This document shows, in pieces, positions 8,149-25,552 of a stretch of DNA of 27,693 nucleotides. Position 1 is the stretch's first letter; each line of letters opens with the position of its first letter. The stretch comes from a virus, in IMG/VR virus record IMGVR_UViG_3300044673_000539, positions 1 to 27,693 of that record; one strand, 5' to 3'. Made by a program: the position numbers and the translations under genes. The notes under the pieces were generated by a model that saw nothing but the letters and a program-made list of their open reading frames with translations, was not told the DNA's origin and ran no database searches.

Positions 8149-8906
8149 CAGATACCGAATTTACTGAGCTCATCAAGTGTCTTCTGGTCCATCTCCTCAC
8201 CTGCATCCTTCAGCTCACCCACCCGTATCTTTAAATTATCGATGATTATCTCAGCTTTCTTCTCATTGATGCCAGCCTGAAGCTTCTTAAGGTTGGTTGA
8301 GATGAATTTCCGGTTTGCATTGATCCTTTTATGGTCAATTTTCTCATTGCTTTGGCCATTTTTCTCATTACGGTTTTCATCAGGATCCCAGGCATCGATC
8401 ACCGCCCAGTTATCCCTTACCAGGTCATCAAGATCTGCCAGCTGGCCGGTTAATACCCCGCGATCTTCCACACTGGCATTATCCATCAGCTTCGACTTTT
8501 CATGCAGGGCACGCATCTGCTTGTAAGCATCCCTGTTCTGGTCCCAAAGCTTCCTGATGTCGCCTGGCAGCTGATCTACATCGATTACATTGCCGTCACG
8601 AATAATTTTTTTCGTCTCAAGGTTTTCATCTCTTGGCACCCTCCTGATAGGAGCCACTTTTTCAGACTTTGCAGATTTTGGCGGTTTTGGCGGTTTTGGC
8701 GGCTTGAAATTGCTTTGTTGTGGAGCCTTCGGAGCTTCAGCCTTTGGCATTGCCTTTAAAACCTTTTCAAGCTCATATTTCAGCTTTGCAGCGTTTTTCT
8801 TCTTAGAGAGGTTCTGCAGGAGAACCCTGTTTTTCGAATGCTTTGTTAAAAGCAGCAAACCTTCTTCATAGTGCCTGTCTACTTCCTTGAGATCTAACGT
8901 AACCAT
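8148..8906 (-). CDS. Hypothetical coiled-coil protein with PPK repeats
   Basis: This 252-aa soluble protein sits between the glycosyltransferase and small terminase genes. The N-terminal helix region (1-60) is Lys/Leu-rich. A linker at about 65-80 carries PPKPPKPPK repeats, encoded by a short tandem DNA repeat near 8680-8705. The conserved-looking middle part reads LPGDIRKLWDQNRDAYKQMR (residues about 113-132), and the C-terminus is strongly charged helix. I recognise no enzyme motif. Proteins of this appearance precede terminase genes in Bacteroidota phages, but their role is unknown to me. It overlaps the glycosyltransferase end by 13 nt, so it is likely cotranscribed with it. Confidence 0.55.
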   Translation of the reverse strand: MVTLDLKEVDRHYEEGLLLLTKHSKNRVLLQNLSKKKNAAKLKYELEKVLKAMPKAEAPKAPQQSNFKPPKPPKPPKSAKSEKVAPIRRVPRDENLETKKIIRDGNVIDVDQLPGDIRKLWDQNRDAYKQMRALHEKSKLMDNASVEDRGVLTGQLADLDDLVRDNWAVIDAWDPDENRNEKNGQSNEKIDHKRINANRKFISTNLKKLQAGINEKKAEIIIDNLKIRVGELKDAGEEMDQKTLDELSKFGI

Positions 8907-11020
8907 AATCTTAGTGTTTGTTGAAGTTTATGAATTCCTATTTCCTGACCTTTCTTACTTTCAAGGAATCTTTTTAGCTGTATATTCCTGGGGGCGAACT
9001 GGATGACAATTGCAACGCCCTCCTCATAGTTGCAACCTTTCCTAAACCAGTCTTCAACGGCCTTTCTCTTATCCGTCGATGTAAAAAACAACTCATATTC
9101 TGAGGCATCAGGATACATTATCTGCAGCTCATCCTCCAGAACATCAGTGAGGCCGTGATCATTAAAATTGAAAACTATCTTATCAGCCAGGTAGATCCTG
9201 ATCTCCTCTGCAGTCATGGGGTTATAGATCTTCCCGTTCCTGCCTCTTATATCCTCTCCATGGAAGATCGATGAGCTATTCAGGTAGATATTACTGCATG
9301 TAAATGCATTATTATAGATATCCCACTTTGCAAGTATCTGCAGAAATTCTTTCTTATCAACAGGCTGCGGACAATGAGCCCGGTCATAATTATTGTCAGT
9401 AAGGCCTCTTTTTTTAAGCTCGTGCCCGGTGGCATAAACATAATCATACCAGGCTGAAGGCCTGAAGGTACTGTCATGATGACCTACATGCCGGTGCTCT
9501 TCAATATCCTTTACAGCATCATACATAATCGCACCTTCATGCCATCCTTTAAAATCGGTAAACGACAGATCTGCATTCAGAAGGGTATCATCAGTGCAGA
9601 AGACAAACTGGTCACTCACACGCGGATCCTTACAGGCTTCAGCAAGTTTCAGCAGCATCCTAGAGTCTTTAACAAAAGCGTTATTATCCTGAACAGGGAT
9701 TTGAATCACATCTCTGAGCCAGTATGGGCAATCTCCCACAACGACAACATTCCTCAGGTCCCTGAAGTGCTTTTTAAAAGAACGAATACTGTACCTGATT
9801 TCATTATCCATCCATATACTTCCTTTCCCCAGCACATAAACAACATCAATACCAGGAGAGCTCAAGCTGTCAGGTGTGCCTCCATATGCTCCTGTATTAC
9901 CGGTTTGTGTAACAACGAGATCTAACCAGTACTGCTTTTTAATTATTAATGAAAGCTTGCTTATATAAGTATAATCACCGCCTTTCTGGCTTTCAAATGC
10001 CAGCTTATGCTTATGCTTGGCATGAAAAATGAAGCACGGCATCCCAATATCTTTCCGTACTATCTTTTGGGTTTTAAAGTTTGCGGGAGAAGGAATAATT
10101 CTGCCTGTTGGCCATCTCATTTTAACGAAATAAATAGCATTGTCCTCCCTGAGTTGGTAAGATACCTGTTCCAGAACTGAGCTGTCAGCCAGGTAATCAT
10201 CATCATCAAGAATGAATATCCAGCCTCCTTTAACGTGGGCAATTAATTCATTCAGATAAAGGTTGTATGGCGCTGTGTCAATTTCATTTTTGAATCTTTT
10301 ATGAACCATAACCGGTTCAATACCTGCAGCCCGTACATAAACGGCCGTATTTTCATCATCGGCGCTCACCAGTATATTCACATTCTCGTATCTCTGCGAC
10401 CTTATCGATTCAATACAACGGTTGAACAGCTGCTCCCTGTTCGATGATCTTATCAGAACATTAATTGTATTATCCATCAGATGATCTTTATATTTCTTGC
10501 CTTCCATCAGCCGGTAATAATGCATCAGGTAGATACCTTGCATAAGAAGTATCTTGAAACCATGCTTCAGCATCTGTTCTGATATCTGGGTATCTACTCC
10601 GAGAAGGTTGGCGCCATCGGTCACTCTCATCATATCCTTCCTGATCTGCATCCAGGTACCCTTCTTAATGCACATCAGATGTCCGGCTATATGTTGATTT
10701 AACTCGACTACCTGAAGATGGTACTTCTCATAGATCTCTCTTGATTTTTTCCGGTGATATATTATTGAGTCATTCTCCTGGATAATACCAGGCGGAACCA
10801 TATAACCATAACCGCAACGGCTGGAATAACATGTAAATAAACCTGTATCAGGATATTTTTCTACATACTCCTGTACCTGGTGCCCGAAATTGCTTTCGAA
10901 AAAGAGAGTATCACCATCCAGAAAACAACCCCAGTCATCATCCTGTAGTAAAGCCATACAATCGTCGTATGCTTCAAAGAGCTTCTTGTTTAAGGAGTAT
11001 GGAGTAAAATAATATATCAT
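8894..11020 (-). CDS. Three-part glycosyltransferase (GT-A like + GT2 + Stealth-like)
   Basis: This 708-aa protein seems to hold three transferase-like units. Residues 1-180 look like a GT-A fold, with DDDWGCFLDGDTLFF around 27-41 and a DGD metal/nucleotide motif at 35-37. Residues 184-390 form a family 2 glycosyltransferase: INVLIRSSNREQLFNRCIES at its start and WIFILDDDDYLAD with the acidic motif at 272-275. Residues 391-520 begin IDVVYVLGKGSIWMDNEIRY and continue to VFCTDDTLLN, resembling Stealth/capsule phosphotransferase or a third GT-A fold. No membrane segment or signal peptide is seen. It would move sugars from nucleotide donors to an unknown acceptor. It lies in the virion module just after a terminator and has its own leader. 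Substrate is unknown: virion glycosylation or host surface change are both possible. Confidence 0.82.
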   Translation of the reverse strand: MIYYFTPYSLNKKLFEAYDDCMALLQDDDWGCFLDGDTLFFESNFGHQVQEYVEKYPDTGLFTCYSSRCGYGYMVPPGIIQENDSIIYHRKKSREIYEKYHLQVVELNQHIAGHLMCIKKGTWMQIRKDMMRVTDGANLLGVDTQISEQMLKHGFKILLMQGIYLMHYYRLMEGKKYKDHLMDNTINVLIRSSNREQLFNRCIESIRSQRYENVNILVSADDENTAVYVRAAGIEPVMVHKRFKNEIDTAPYNLYLNELIAHVKGGWIFILDDDDYLADSSVLEQVSYQLREDNAIYFVKMRWPTGRIIPSPANFKTQKIVRKDIGMPCFIFHAKHKHKLAFESQKGGDYTYISKLSLIIKKQYWLDLVVTQTGNTGAYGGTPDSLSSPGIDVVYVLGKGSIWMDNEIRYSIRSFKKHFRDLRNVVVVGDCPYWLRDVIQIPVQDNNAFVKDSRMLLKLAEACKDPRVSDQFVFCTDDTLLNADLSFTDFKGWHEGAIMYDAVKDIEEHRHVGHHDSTFRPSAWYDYVYATGHELKKRGLTDNNYDRAHCPQPVDKKEFLQILAKWDIYNNAFTCSNIYLNSSSIFHGEDIRGRNGKIYNPMTAEEIRIYLADKIVFNFNDHGLTDVLEDELQIMYPDASEYELFFTSTDKRKAVEDWFRKGCNYEEGVAIVIQFAPRNIQLKRFLESKKGQEIGIHKLQQTLRLWLR

Positions 11021-17584: not shown

Positions 17585-17896
17585 TTATGTAAACATTAAT
17601 CTTTGATTATCCTTTACTATGGTGGTCACAAAAGGGAAATTGCTTTTAGGCACCTGTTCTATTTGCTCAATCAGGCATGTAGATCCTGTGAACAGAACAT
17701 GTTTCACATCATTTATGGAGATCTGCATGTAAAGGCATCTCTCCGATCCGCGATCCTGGTATGATTTCACCTTCGATTTTTCAATCTTGTATTCATGAAC
17801 AAGTATTTCCCTGTTCAAAACTCTCTCCATCTTAATCTTATCTCCTTCAAAACCCTTTGATGGAGCCTTAATGTTAAACTGACTGAACTGGTACAT
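17585..17896 (-). CDS. Small beta-rich protein next to the DGR reverse transcriptase
   Basis: This 103-aa protein starts MYQFSQFNIKAPSKGFEGDK. It shows an alternating basic/strand pattern (REILVHEYKIEKSKVKSYQD, CLYMQISINDVKHVLFTGST) and ends with VPKSNFPFVTTIVKDNQRLM. It resembles a small OB-like or single-stranded nucleic-acid-binding protein, but this is an impression only. Its start overlaps the reverse transcriptase end by 23 nt, so the two are probably coupled. It is not an Avd protein, which is a helical bundle of about 120 aa. It could take an accessory role in the retroelement or be a general phage protein. Confidence 0.55.
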   Translation of the reverse strand: MYQFSQFNIKAPSKGFEGDKIKMERVLNREILVHEYKIEKSKVKSYQDRGSERCLYMQISINDVKHVLFTGSTCLIEQIEQVPKSNFPFVTTIVKDNQRLMFT

Positions 17897-18842
17897 TTAA
17901 AAGTTTATTTAATAGGTTATTACTGTCGCAGTGCTTTGCCCAACCGGTATAAGAAGCTATTGTTTGAGCATTACAGTGCCCGGCCAGCTTTCTGGCAAAA
18001 TTCTTTTTAATGCTCTTACGCAGCTTAACATGAGTGTGCCTGAATACATAGCCAACAAAGTCGATTCCCCTGGCATCAACAGGAAACACCTGGTAATTTG
18101 ATTTAATACTGAGCCTCAACTTTTGATCCAGATAGCTCCTTATCTCGGCCAGCAATGCATGGAGATACTGTTTATTATTGGCAAGTATTACCAGGTCATC
18201 AGCATACCTGAAATAATATTTTACCCTCAGATCCTCCTTCAGCCAGTGGTCAAAATACGTCAGATAGAAATTAGCAAGGTATTGGCTCAGGTAGTTGCCA
18301 ATCGGAAGGCCGTCAGCGCTGTCGATAATTCCATCCAGCAACCATAAAAGATCATTGTCTTTAATCTTCCTCCGGAGAAGCATCTTTAATATATCACGGT
18401 CAACACTCGGGTAAAATTTTCTTATATCGAGCTTCATGCAGTAGGTTGTTCCGGGAATATCCTCCAGTGCCTTTCTGAGATCCCGGGCTGCTGCATGTAT
18501 CCCCCGTTTTTTAATGCAGCTGTAAGTGTTGGCTGTAAATGAGGCCACAAACACAGGCTCCAGTACATTCATAACAGCATGATGCACTATCCTGTCGGGG
18601 TAATAGGGGAGCCTGAAGATCAGTCGTTCTTTTGGCTCATATATGTGAAAGGTGGTATATTCTGAAGTAACGTAGGTCTTATTCATAAGCGCCTGGTGCA
18701 GGAGCTGAATGTTTTGTTTCTGGTTCCTGTCATGTTCAATAATGCCAGGTTGTTTTGTTTTGCCTTTACGGGCAATGGAGTCTGCCAGGTTAAGATTCTC
18801 AACACTGCAGATCTTCTCATATAAATTTCCGTGTCTTTTCAT
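17874..18842 (-). CDS. DGR reverse transcriptase
   Basis: This enzyme copies the template repeat RNA into adenine-mutated cDNA for transfer to the variable repeats. Numbered from the ATG at 18842 (322 aa), it has LDIRKFYPSV at 138-147 (catalytic Asp of motif A), GLPIGNYLSQ at 178-187 and YADD at 213-216. The IGNxxSQ form in place of the retron/intron QGxxxSP type marks DGR reverse transcriptases. I choose MKRHGNLYEKI as start: it has AAAGG a few bases upstream and matches the usual family N-terminus. The in-frame extension to 18929 is Lys/Arg-rich and overlaps the TR-RT spacer. No maturase or endonuclease domain is present. TR lies 111 nt upstream. Confidence 0.95.
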   Translation of the reverse strand: MKRHGNLYEKICSVENLNLADSIARKGKTKQPGIIEHDRNQKQNIQLLHQALMNKTYVTSEYTTFHIYEPKERLIFRLPYYPDRIVHHAVMNVLEPVFVASFTANTYSCIKKRGIHAAARDLRKALEDIPGTTYCMKLDIRKFYPSVDRDILKMLLRRKIKDNDLLWLLDGIIDSADGLPIGNYLSQYLANFYLTYFDHWLKEDLRVKYYFRYADDLVILANNKQYLHALLAEIRSYLDQKLRLSIKSNYQVFPVDARGIDFVGYVFRHTHVKLRKSIKKNFARKLAGHCNAQTIASYTGWAKHCDSNNLLNKLLNVPVQSV

Positions 18843-18953
18843 ATTGCCTTTGCTTTCAAAAGATCGCGTTCTCCTTTCCCGGGTACCAGCGCTCTTGCTT
18901 TTTTTCTTGATTTTTTGCCATGTGGGCAAGGTCTATGTTGCATTAGATTGCTT

Positions 18954-19030
18954 AGGTGCGAACTGACGTTCGAATTCGTGTTATCGTAGTTGTAATTCGT
19001 GTTCGAAAAGCCGAACCCTGAGGAAAGAAC
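18954..19030 (-). other. DGR template repeat (TR)
   Basis: This 77-bp segment lies between target A and the reverse transcriptase and is nearly identical to segments in both target genes. On the sense (minus) strand it carries 20 adenines and is rich in AAC/AAT codons, as TRs are. Read in the same frame as the targets it would give SGFGFSNTNYNYDNTNSN. All 20 TR-VR differences are at adenines. Ends are sharp: GTTCTTTCC at the 5' side and CACCT at the 3' side. Near its 3' end it has AGTTCGCACCT where both VRs have GGTTCGCGCCT, the pattern of an IMH*/IMH pair. Confidence 0.96.
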
Positions 19031-19068
19031 TGACAGCTCCGGCAACATACAACCTCAAATTAGTGTTT

Positions 19069-19488
19069 TTACTCTGAGTAGAGGAAATAATCCTTGTATA
19101 AGTCCTCAAACTGATTGGCTATGTATAAAGCCTTCTCTGATGTATCAGTACAAAGGCGCGAACCGACGTTCGAATCCGTGTCATCGTAGCCGTAACTCGC
19201 GCTCGAAAAGCCGAACCCCGAGGAAAGAACCCTGTACCATGGGAAGTACTTATATTGATCCCAGTTAGACCAGTCGGGCCTCCAGCCATTATTAATTGCC
19301 CTGTATATTATTGTCAGCTTATAGTTGGCAATAATTGGCTTCCTTAAATCCTCAGGAATGTTAGATACGTCGGGCAGTGCTGCAGGATCCAGTCCAAGTT
19401 TCTTGCAGGCATCTTCGAATGTTTTGATGCTTTTGTAATCGAACTTCTCTGAGCTCTTTGCTGTTTTTTTCGTTTTTGTTGTCATCAT
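19069..19488 (-). CDS. DGR target protein A (variable protein)
   Basis: This 139-aa protein has a Lys-rich start, a helical region KTFEDACKKLGLDPAALPDV (about residues 22-41) and a Trp-rich segment (INNGWRPDWSNWDQYKYFPW). The variable segment follows (residues about 87-112, SGFGFSSASYGYDDTDSNVG), then a fixed end, TSEKALYIANQFEDLYKDYF. The SNVGSRLC stretch recalls the IGFRLC end of C-type-lectin DGR targets, but the fold is not proven. No signal peptide or membrane segment. It is a paralogue of target B directly upstream (8 nt apart) and lies 20 nt before the TR-containing gap. This protein type is frequent in Bacteroidota phages. Its ligand is unknown. Confidence 0.9.
   Translation of the reverse strand: MMTTKTKKTAKSSEKFDYKSIKTFEDACKKLGLDPAALPDVSNIPEDLRKPIIANYKLTIIYRAINNGWRPDWSNWDQYKYFPWYRVLSSGFGFSSASYGYDDTDSNVGSRLCTDTSEKALYIANQFEDLYKDYFLYSE
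19154..19230 (-). repeat. DGR variable repeat 1 (VR1, in target A)
   Basis: Exactly 200 bp from the TR with the same 77-bp length and no gaps. It differs from the TR at 10 positions, all T to C on the plus strand (A to G in sense). Three of these are shared with VR2. Changed codons turn NTNYNYDNTNSN into SASYGYDDTDSN. Confidence 0.96.
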
Positions 19489-19496
19489 TTCAAATG

Positions 19497-19952
19497 TTAG
19501 GTTAAGAAATCTTTATATAAGTCAGTGAATTGTTTACCGGCATATTCAGCCTTCTCCGAGGTCTCAAAGCAAAGGCGCGAACCGACGTCCGAATTCGCGT
19601 TATCGCAGTTGCAATCCGTGCGCGAAAAGCCGAACCCCGAGGAAAGAACAAAGTATGGCCACCATTTACGCTGATTGCTATTGTTCCAGTCGGGAGTCCA
19701 GCCCTGGTTGATAGCTGCTATAACTACCTTAATTTTCTTATACGCAGCTTCATCTTTGGTGTCAGTGGCAACACATACTGCATCAGGATCAATCCCGAGA
19801 GCTTCACAGGCATCTTCAAAAGTCCTGATATCCGTGAACTTCTTTTTACTTAACGCCTCCTTGGTGAAAGAATTCTCAAGCTGCTCTTTGAAAAAGTCAG
19901 GCACTGAATCATAGAGCTTTCTGGCTGTTTTTAAATCAATTGTTAATGACAT
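19497..19952 (-). CDS. DGR target protein B (variable protein)
   Basis: This 151-aa protein is a paralogue of target A with an extra N-terminal helix region (DLKTARKLYDSVPDFFKEQL). It shares FTDIRTFEDACEALGIDPDA (about residues 39-58) and AAINQGWTPDWNN. The variable segment is at residues about 102-127 (SGFGFSRTDCNCDNANSDVG), followed by a fixed end, TSEKAEYAGKQFTDLYKDFL. VR changes introduce two Cys (C-N-C) absent from target A. No export signal is seen. It is first of the DGR gene string. The leader contains ATAAACCCT before its start. Function is unknown beyond presumed ligand binding. Confidence 0.9.
   Translation of the reverse strand: MSLTIDLKTARKLYDSVPDFFKEQLENSFTKEALSKKKFTDIRTFEDACEALGIDPDAVCVATDTKDEAAYKKIKVVIAAINQGWTPDWNNSNQRKWWPYFVLSSGFGFSRTDCNCDNANSDVGSRLCFETSEKAEYAGKQFTDLYKDFLT
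19573..19649 (-). repeat. DGR variable repeat 2 (VR2, in target B)
   Basis: 619 bp from the TR, 77 bp, no gaps. Ten differences from the TR, nine T to C and one T to G on the plus strand (A to G and A to C in sense), again only at TR adenines. Seven of the ten positions are not shared as differences with VR1 or are hit independently at shared adenines, so this VR has its own mutation history. Confidence 0.96.
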
Positions 19953-20289: not shown

Positions 20290-20553
20290 TTAGGCTTGTT
20301 TCAGTTTCAATAACATATCCTCCACATCTCTCACACTTGAACATTTGATCTTATCGATCATCTCATCCGGGATGGTGATGGAAAGCTCTTTTTCCAACTG
20401 ACAGACAAATTCTACAGCATCGAGACTGTCAAATCCAAGATCTGCATCGAGAATATTTTCATCATGAATATCCCCACTGTTAAGTTCAGGCTTAACTTTT
20501 ATTATGCTGTCAATAACAGCCTGTTCAATTAATGCCATGTACATAAGTTTCAT
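20290..20553 (-). CDS. Acyl carrier protein
   Basis: This 87-aa acidic helical protein matches acyl carrier proteins throughout. Helix 1 is ALIEQAVIDSIIKVKPEL. Then comes NILDADLGFDSLDAVEFVCQ, with the phosphopantetheine attachment Ser in the DSL motif (about residue 43), helix 2 following it, and helix 4 VRDVEDMLLKL. ACPs carry acyl or peptidyl chains as thioesters for fatty acid, lipid A or secondary product enzymes. No synthase, transferase or phosphopantetheinyl transferase gene is nearby, so host enzymes would have to load it. The start could also be the Met at residue 4 or 6. It lies 3 nt after the previous stop. Confidence 0.88.
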   Translation of the reverse strand: MKLMYMALIEQAVIDSIIKVKPELNSGDIHDENILDADLGFDSLDAVEFVCQLEKELSITIPDEMIDKIKCSSVRDVEDMLLKLKQA

Positions 20554-25216: not shown

Positions 25217-25552
25217 TTAAGCAGATTTTAATTCATATACCGGAGTTTCATCCTCCACTTTTTTGAAAATATATCCTCCGCATGAATGCCTCTTCCCTTC
25301 AATTACCCTGTGCAGATCTCTCCTGTTCACGCAAAGCTTTTCTGAAGCTTCATTAGTGCTTTTATATCTTCCTACTTCATTGCCAAGCCGGTCATATGCA
25401 ATAACCTCTTCCTGGTCAGAATAAAAATGATCGGTACCCACAACAAGCGCCATCTGTATGTAAAGCCTGCAGGCAGTGTCAATATCAGCTCCCTGCTTTA
25501 TAAGATTAGCCAGCTCAGAGCTAAGTGAGTTTATAACCTTATCGCGTGTCAT
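25217..25552 (-). CDS. NUMOD1-like DNA-binding protein without nuclease domain
   Basis: This 111-aa protein has a helical N-terminal half and, from about residue 50, EVIAYDRLGNEVGRYKSTNE and EASEKLCVNRRDLHRVIEGK followed by GGYIFKKVE. This is the NUMOD1 pattern (YD..G..I..y.S..EAa..L.v....I....G....GGY.W), a DNA-binding unit usually attached to HNH or GIY-YIG homing endonucleases. No nuclease motif is present here or in the neighbours, so it may have been taken over as a regulator. It lies 19 nt before the HTH gene start and follows the 110-aa gene. Confidence 0.7.
   Translation of the reverse strand: MTRDKVINSLSSELANLIKQGADIDTACRLYIQMALVVGTDHFYSDQEEVIAYDRLGNEVGRYKSTNEASEKLCVNRRDLHRVIEGKRHSCGGYIFKKVEDETPVYELKSA

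Follow-up and report, generated by a model that had tools for sequence, protein, structure and literature searches.

The DNA analysed here (hereafter the window) is a virus record of 27,693 bases that stands alone. Its minus strand carries a compact diversity-generating retroelement (DGR) cassette in the order target 1 (T1), target 2 (T2), TR, spacer, reverse transcriptase (RT), and a small gene referred to as ORF103. The cassette consists of the following features:

19497..19952, minus strand: T1, an open reading frame (ORF) of 151 aa matching phrog_11581 (E 1.5e-29), from a target (T) family present in 90 loci
19573..19649, minus strand: VR1, codons 102-126 of T1
19069..19488, minus strand: T2, an ORF of 139 aa, paralogue of T1, matching phrog_11581 (E 3.2e-32)
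19154..19230, minus strand: VR2, codons 87-111 of T2
18954..19030, minus strand: TR, 77 nt with 20 adenines
18954..18967, minus strand: IMH*-like 3' end of the TR (GTCAGTTCGCACCT; GTCGGTTCGCGCCT in the VRs), from codon comparison of 126 VRs at 77 loci
18831..18933, minus strand: predicted structured TR-RT spacer RNA, RT-17-like (RF03020, 30.3 bits; covariation)
18916..18928, minus strand: predicted hairpin 1 of the spacer RNA (UGCC..GGCA)
18861..18895, minus strand: predicted stem 2/3 of the spacer RNA
17874..18842, minus strand: DGR reverse transcriptase, 322 aa from its ATG (RVT_1; phrog_1423, E 1.5e-126; motifs intact)
17585..17896, minus strand: ORF103, 103 aa, overlapping the 3' end of the RT gene, proposed substitute for Avd

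The first-pass annotation had read positions 17874-19952 as a complete DGR with two paralogous targets, one TR and an RT on one strand, and both this anatomy and the adenine restriction of all 20 TR-VR mismatches (see below) bear it out. The elements that it named are present, and a single TR does serve two targets. Its downstream limit has to be moved, however, as ORF103 takes the cassette to 17585, and the annotation had noticed neither this proposed accessory gene nor the structure of the template RNA. The cassette is located between lysis/replication genes and head genes, with no recognised tail-fibre gene nearby. About 0.3 kb upstream of T1, at 20290-20553 on the minus strand, the window also encodes a phage acyl carrier protein (PP-binding, E 1.7e-10; phrog_5934).

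VR1 and VR2 each differ from the TR at 10 positions, and every mismatch falls on one of the 20 adenines among the 77 TR bases, for which the chance is ~1.7e-7 per VR and ~3e-14 for 20 out of 20 jointly. Likewise, the 12 sites that distinguish VR1 from VR2 are all TR adenines, and TR-VR identity stops sharply at the edges of the 77-nt repeat. No adenine-limited repeat pattern was found elsewhere in the window. A plain tandem duplication plus a third fragment would be in keeping with the paralogy of T1 and T2, but it is practically excluded, as an origin of the differences by drift or gene conversion is refuted by the adenine restriction, the identity is cut off sharply at the 77-nt repeat, and the same pattern recurs in 115 loci. 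Changes at TR adenines cannot reach a stop codon, and ~1.9e11 protein variants can be reached through them.

Three of the 10 mismatches are identical A>G changes in both VRs (core positions 11, 66, and 73, 0-based), and positions 66 and 73 form a TR/VR difference that is fixed class-wide (126 VRs, 77 loci). The first codon of this difference is GGN in all VRs and mostly AGT or AGC in TRs, and the second is CGC or CGG in nearly all VRs and mostly CAC, CAG, or CAT in TRs, giving the residues G..R in VRs versus S..H in TRs. Judged from this codon comparison, the fixed 3' difference corresponds to the expected IMH/IMH* pair, which would mean that homing leaves the VR intact at its 3' end. The earlier statement that 10 of 10 VR differences lie at TR adenines therefore holds for their position but not as a count of mutations: with three mismatches common to both VRs, two of them fixed, ~7 sites per VR are real products of mutagenesis. 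The spectrum of changes is also unusually uniform, with A>G making up 19 of the 20 TR-to-VR changes in the window (19154-19649) against a class mean of 54%, and only 5 of 199 class VRs reaching 90% G; this near-pure A>G spectrum may be due to chance.

The class of related loci was built by a scan with the window RT, which yielded 80 loci from viruses and 58 from genomes. Adenine-limited TR-VR pairs are present in 115 of 140 related loci, and in a typical locus the TR precedes the start of the RT by ~180 nt and the VRs precede it by ~370 and ~780 nt. Of the 90 loci that contain small T-family targets, 48 have two copies, 29 have three, and three have four, so that two tandem targets are the norm. 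The window DGR thus belongs to a widespread class of Bacteroidota-phage DGRs that usually have two or three small targets in tandem. The cassette moves as a unit, as exemplified by locus L002, where the same five elements are placed between the small and large terminase genes. A further branch of related DGRs lacking ORF103 was found in viral contigs, one of them 362 kb long (L046, L048, L051, L060, and L071); three of these (L046, L048, and L051) have an additional VR-bearing target behind the RT.

The window RT contains the motifs IGNYLSQ and YADD, confirming the IGNxxSQ and YADD motifs reported in the first-pass annotation, and matches phrog_1423. It departs from the class at only two of the 106 columns that are near-invariant among 85 relatives, and we found none of the inactivating RT mutations that had been named as evidence against an active element. 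Its start is most likely the ATG at 18842 rather than the TTG at 18929.

Between the TR and the RT, the spacer is conserved across 42 sequences as one hairpin and one longer stem. Two-sided changes that keep the pairing are present in 11 of its 12 pairs, with a covariation score of 0.63 versus 0.21 for shuffled and no more than 0.11 for slid controls. As the window spacer alone folds no more stably than its shuffles (z = 1.0), the case for a structured spacer rests on covariation. The window spacer aligns over its full length to the Rfam family RT-17 (RF03020; 30.3 bits, E 6e-4), below the gathering score of 40.4, while four relatives (L114, L118, L125, and L131) are above that score at the same place. 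On this comparative evidence, the TR-RT spacer is predicted to be a covarying RNA related to RT-17, which would link this orphan RNA family to DGR template RNA. By analogy, such an RNA agrees with what the spacer does in the BPP-1 DGR, where it recruits RT and Avd (PMC12875486).

Directly downstream of the RT, ORF103 belongs to a family that a profile search detected in 116 of 140 RT loci, where it mostly overlaps the RT gene or lies immediately next to it. Avd is considered indispensable in the only DGR that has been studied in depth, and is missing from many others. Searching IMG/VR with ORF103 only, we recovered 80 loci, 79 of which have an RT directly upstream; the remaining one starts at contig base 2. 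In 792 Bacteroidota genomes, each of the 18 matches has a DGR RT no more than ~1.5 kb away, and among 50,697 phages the window ORF103 has only two matches, the archaeal viruses ANMV-1 and vir525, each with the homolog directly behind a DGR RT. No ORF103 was found in plasmids. In L061, L114, L123, hankyphage p00, and four more genomes, the ORF103 domain is fused to the C-terminus of the RT, a state that requires two to four changes on the RT tree, where some joins are on long branches. The hankyphage p00 RT (L229, 3001-4305) is 434 aa long and includes the domain at residues 329-422, and the ANMV-1 protein AJP62065.1 (L220, 3986-4282), annotated as hypothetical in what was the first DGR from an archaeal virus, is a member of the family. 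The crAssphage LMMB RT (L223, 3001-4296) has an unrelated C-terminal extension of ~100 aa without an ORF103 profile match.

The distribution of Avd is different. Its profile PF22296 matches BPP-1 and nd12, both of which lack ORF103 in the profile search, and Avd was absent by this profile from 45 class records (the window and 44 related ones), hankyphage, ANMV-1, and vir525. PF22296 is the useful Avd control, because PF05635, which is absent from the same 45 records, also misses the BPP-1 Avd. ORF103 itself has no match in Pfam, NCBIfam, PADLOC, or PDB sequences. In its structural model (pLDDT 89), the strand order is that of an OB-like barrel, and Foldseek matches in PDB include OB folds (HIN domains, TDRD3, and RPA), although at E 0.15 or worse and none significant. 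Based on this model, ORF103 probably forms a small, OB-like beta-barrel and serves the RT as a nucleic-acid-binding cofactor, and we infer that it binds template RNA or cDNA.

Alternatively, ORF103 might be a co-transcribed passenger, an RT-neighbour gene with no role in retrohoming, the DGR then functioning with no accessory protein or with one from the host. Related DGRs without ORF103 exist, namely a jumbo-phage group (L046/L051/L060) and a Firmicutes group (L128-L136), and ORF103 is therefore not indispensable for all relatives. In gut phages, it lies ~0.4 kb behind the RT with a 128-aa ORF in between, and its role as a cofactor is deduced from sequence rather than biochemistry. Nevertheless, we consider a passenger quite improbable, given its attachment to DGR RTs in 79 of 80 viral loci and 18 of 18 genome matches, its several fusions to RT, its occurrence behind distant RTs in archaeal viruses, and the absence of Avd where ORF103 is present. 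The 128-aa ORF of the gut phages was also considered as an accessory and set aside as a probable tail-neighbour gene; by eye it resembles the ORF behind the hankyphage RT, which matches DUF4376, not Avd, and was set aside on the same grounds. The name of the small "Avd" ORF in hankyphage was based on size and charge only (PMC6199706).

We tentatively propose, with slightly less than even confidence, that ORF103 is a DGR-specific RT cofactor replacing Avd, and that together with the RT-17 spacer RNA it constitutes a second retrohoming machinery, in Bacteroidota phages (including hankyphage, where it lies within the RT) and archaeal viruses, which has gone unrecognised as one family. Known DGR accessories are Avd, HRDC, and MSL, and according to PMC10053308, Wu et al. 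2018 put forward one more protein, which has no entry in Pfam or CDD; ORF103 is possibly that protein. No description of the ORF103 family was found in the literature searched, with Wu et al. 2018 and Weinberg et al. 2017 outside that search. What is added here is the family-wide RT linkage, the fusions, the membership of hankyphage and ANMV-1, and the connection to RT-17. The family is found exclusively with DGR RTs, in some cases within the same polypeptide, and one of its carriers, hankyphage, can be cultured and has had its DGR activity measured there (PMC12135933), which makes the question of Avd replacement directly testable.

Compared with established systems, the window contains a known kind of DGR with an alternative accessory module. 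It shares with the BPP-1 DGR (Mtd/Avd/TR/Brt) the RT family, TR-to-VR adenine mutagenesis, IMH/IMH*, and a structured TR-RT spacer. In BPP-1, however, Avd (PF22296) is encoded between the target and the TR, and a single large C-lectin target carries a VR of 134 bp, whereas the window has ORF103 behind the RT and two small targets with 77-bp VRs. BPP-1-type DGRs also have a hairpin/cruciform behind the VR, whereas no inverted repeat or hairpin of at least 7 bp was found near or behind VR1 or VR2. Hankyphage p00 of Bacteroides shares the ORF103 domain, there as part of the RT, but has one very large tail-fibre target, a TR/VR of 117 bp, and a distant RT (35% identity). ANMV-1 similarly has its ORF103 homolog directly behind the RT, but differs in its large tail-fibre target AdtA, its 114-bp repeats, and its archaeal host (PMC4372165). 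DGRs with two targets are already known (~13%; PMC10743442); the tentaclin systems nd4 and nd12 likewise use one TR for two targets, although nd12 has Avd and its two targets are dissimilar (PMC10743442), unlike the two paralogs in the window.

We are confident that the cassette is a complete phage DGR with one TR serving two targets, an RT, an RT-17-like spacer, and ORF103 as the proposed substitute for Avd. In the proposed mechanism, the TR and the spacer following it would be transcribed together with the RT, and the RT, with ORF103 instead of Avd, would bind the folded RT-17-like spacer. From an inferred priming site, the RT would then reverse-transcribe the TR, introducing errors at adenines; the resulting cDNA would replace the VR of T1 or T2 but spare its 3' (IMH) block.

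Activity of this class was assessed in six near-identical contigs from different metagenomes (L004-L009), which have a cassette of this kind with three targets and an RT 74% identical to that of the window. Among their VR columns, 37 of 244 vary, 35 of them at TR adenines, versus 15 of 7,256 columns outside the VRs, with many of these 15 at contig ends. The TR is constant, and the three VRs each vary independently. Comparing VRs in related phages had been set beforehand as a test in the first-pass annotation, and the adenine-limited variation next to a constant TR is the outcome expected of an active element. DGR activity is thus supported for the class by this sequence signature. Other IMG/VR contigs contain no copies of the window TR or VRs, and no close relative of the window phage was found among them. 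With its intact RT, its VR1 and VR2 diverged only at TR adenines, and the variation in L004-L009, the window phage likely has an active DGR too. An intact but inactive cassette, in which VR1 and VR2 record past events, would accord with the odd spectrum (A>G in 19 of 20 changes versus 54% in the class), but appears improbable because the RT is intact at 104 of 106 near-invariant columns, the T1 and T2 frames are both open, and VR variation at adenines is seen in relatives from this class.

The proteins to be diversified, T1 and T2, are members of PHROG 11581, to which PHROG assigns no function. The AlphaFold model of T1 is helical around the VR loop (pLDDT 89; 57-78 for the loop), has no fold match in PDB, and has uncharacterised phage proteins as its only BFVD matches; as modelled, a C-lectin fold of the target is not supported. 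The VR is not at the very end of either protein, being followed by ~25 codons in T1 and 28 in T2. Probably, T1 and T2 are small stand-alone proteins, diversified in tandem, with a variable loop that binds a changing ligand. By analogy with phage DGR targets, which are mostly tail or receptor-binding proteins (PMC8144416), they are most likely virion-associated recognition or decoration proteins, and a homolog in phage Versailles is annotated as a tail protein, although only by profile. In a reading that is compatible with the DGR mechanism, the targets may instead act inside the cell, for example against host defences or as interaction modulators. This would suit proteins for which visual inspection reveals neither a signal peptide nor a membrane segment and whose cassette lies between lysis/replication and head genes, far from any recognised tail-fibre gene, or between the terminase genes in L002. 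Set against the known targets and the Versailles annotation, we regard an intracellular role as a serious but rather unlikely alternative to a virion-associated one.

Elsewhere on the minus strand, the window encodes a 708-aa glycosyltransferase-like protein (8894-11020; Glycos_transf_2 and a weak Stealth CR2 match), located within the head-gene block with the terminase genes on one side and the capsid region on the other, and a small protein with an I-HmuI/NUMOD-like domain (25217-25552; E 2.5e-8).
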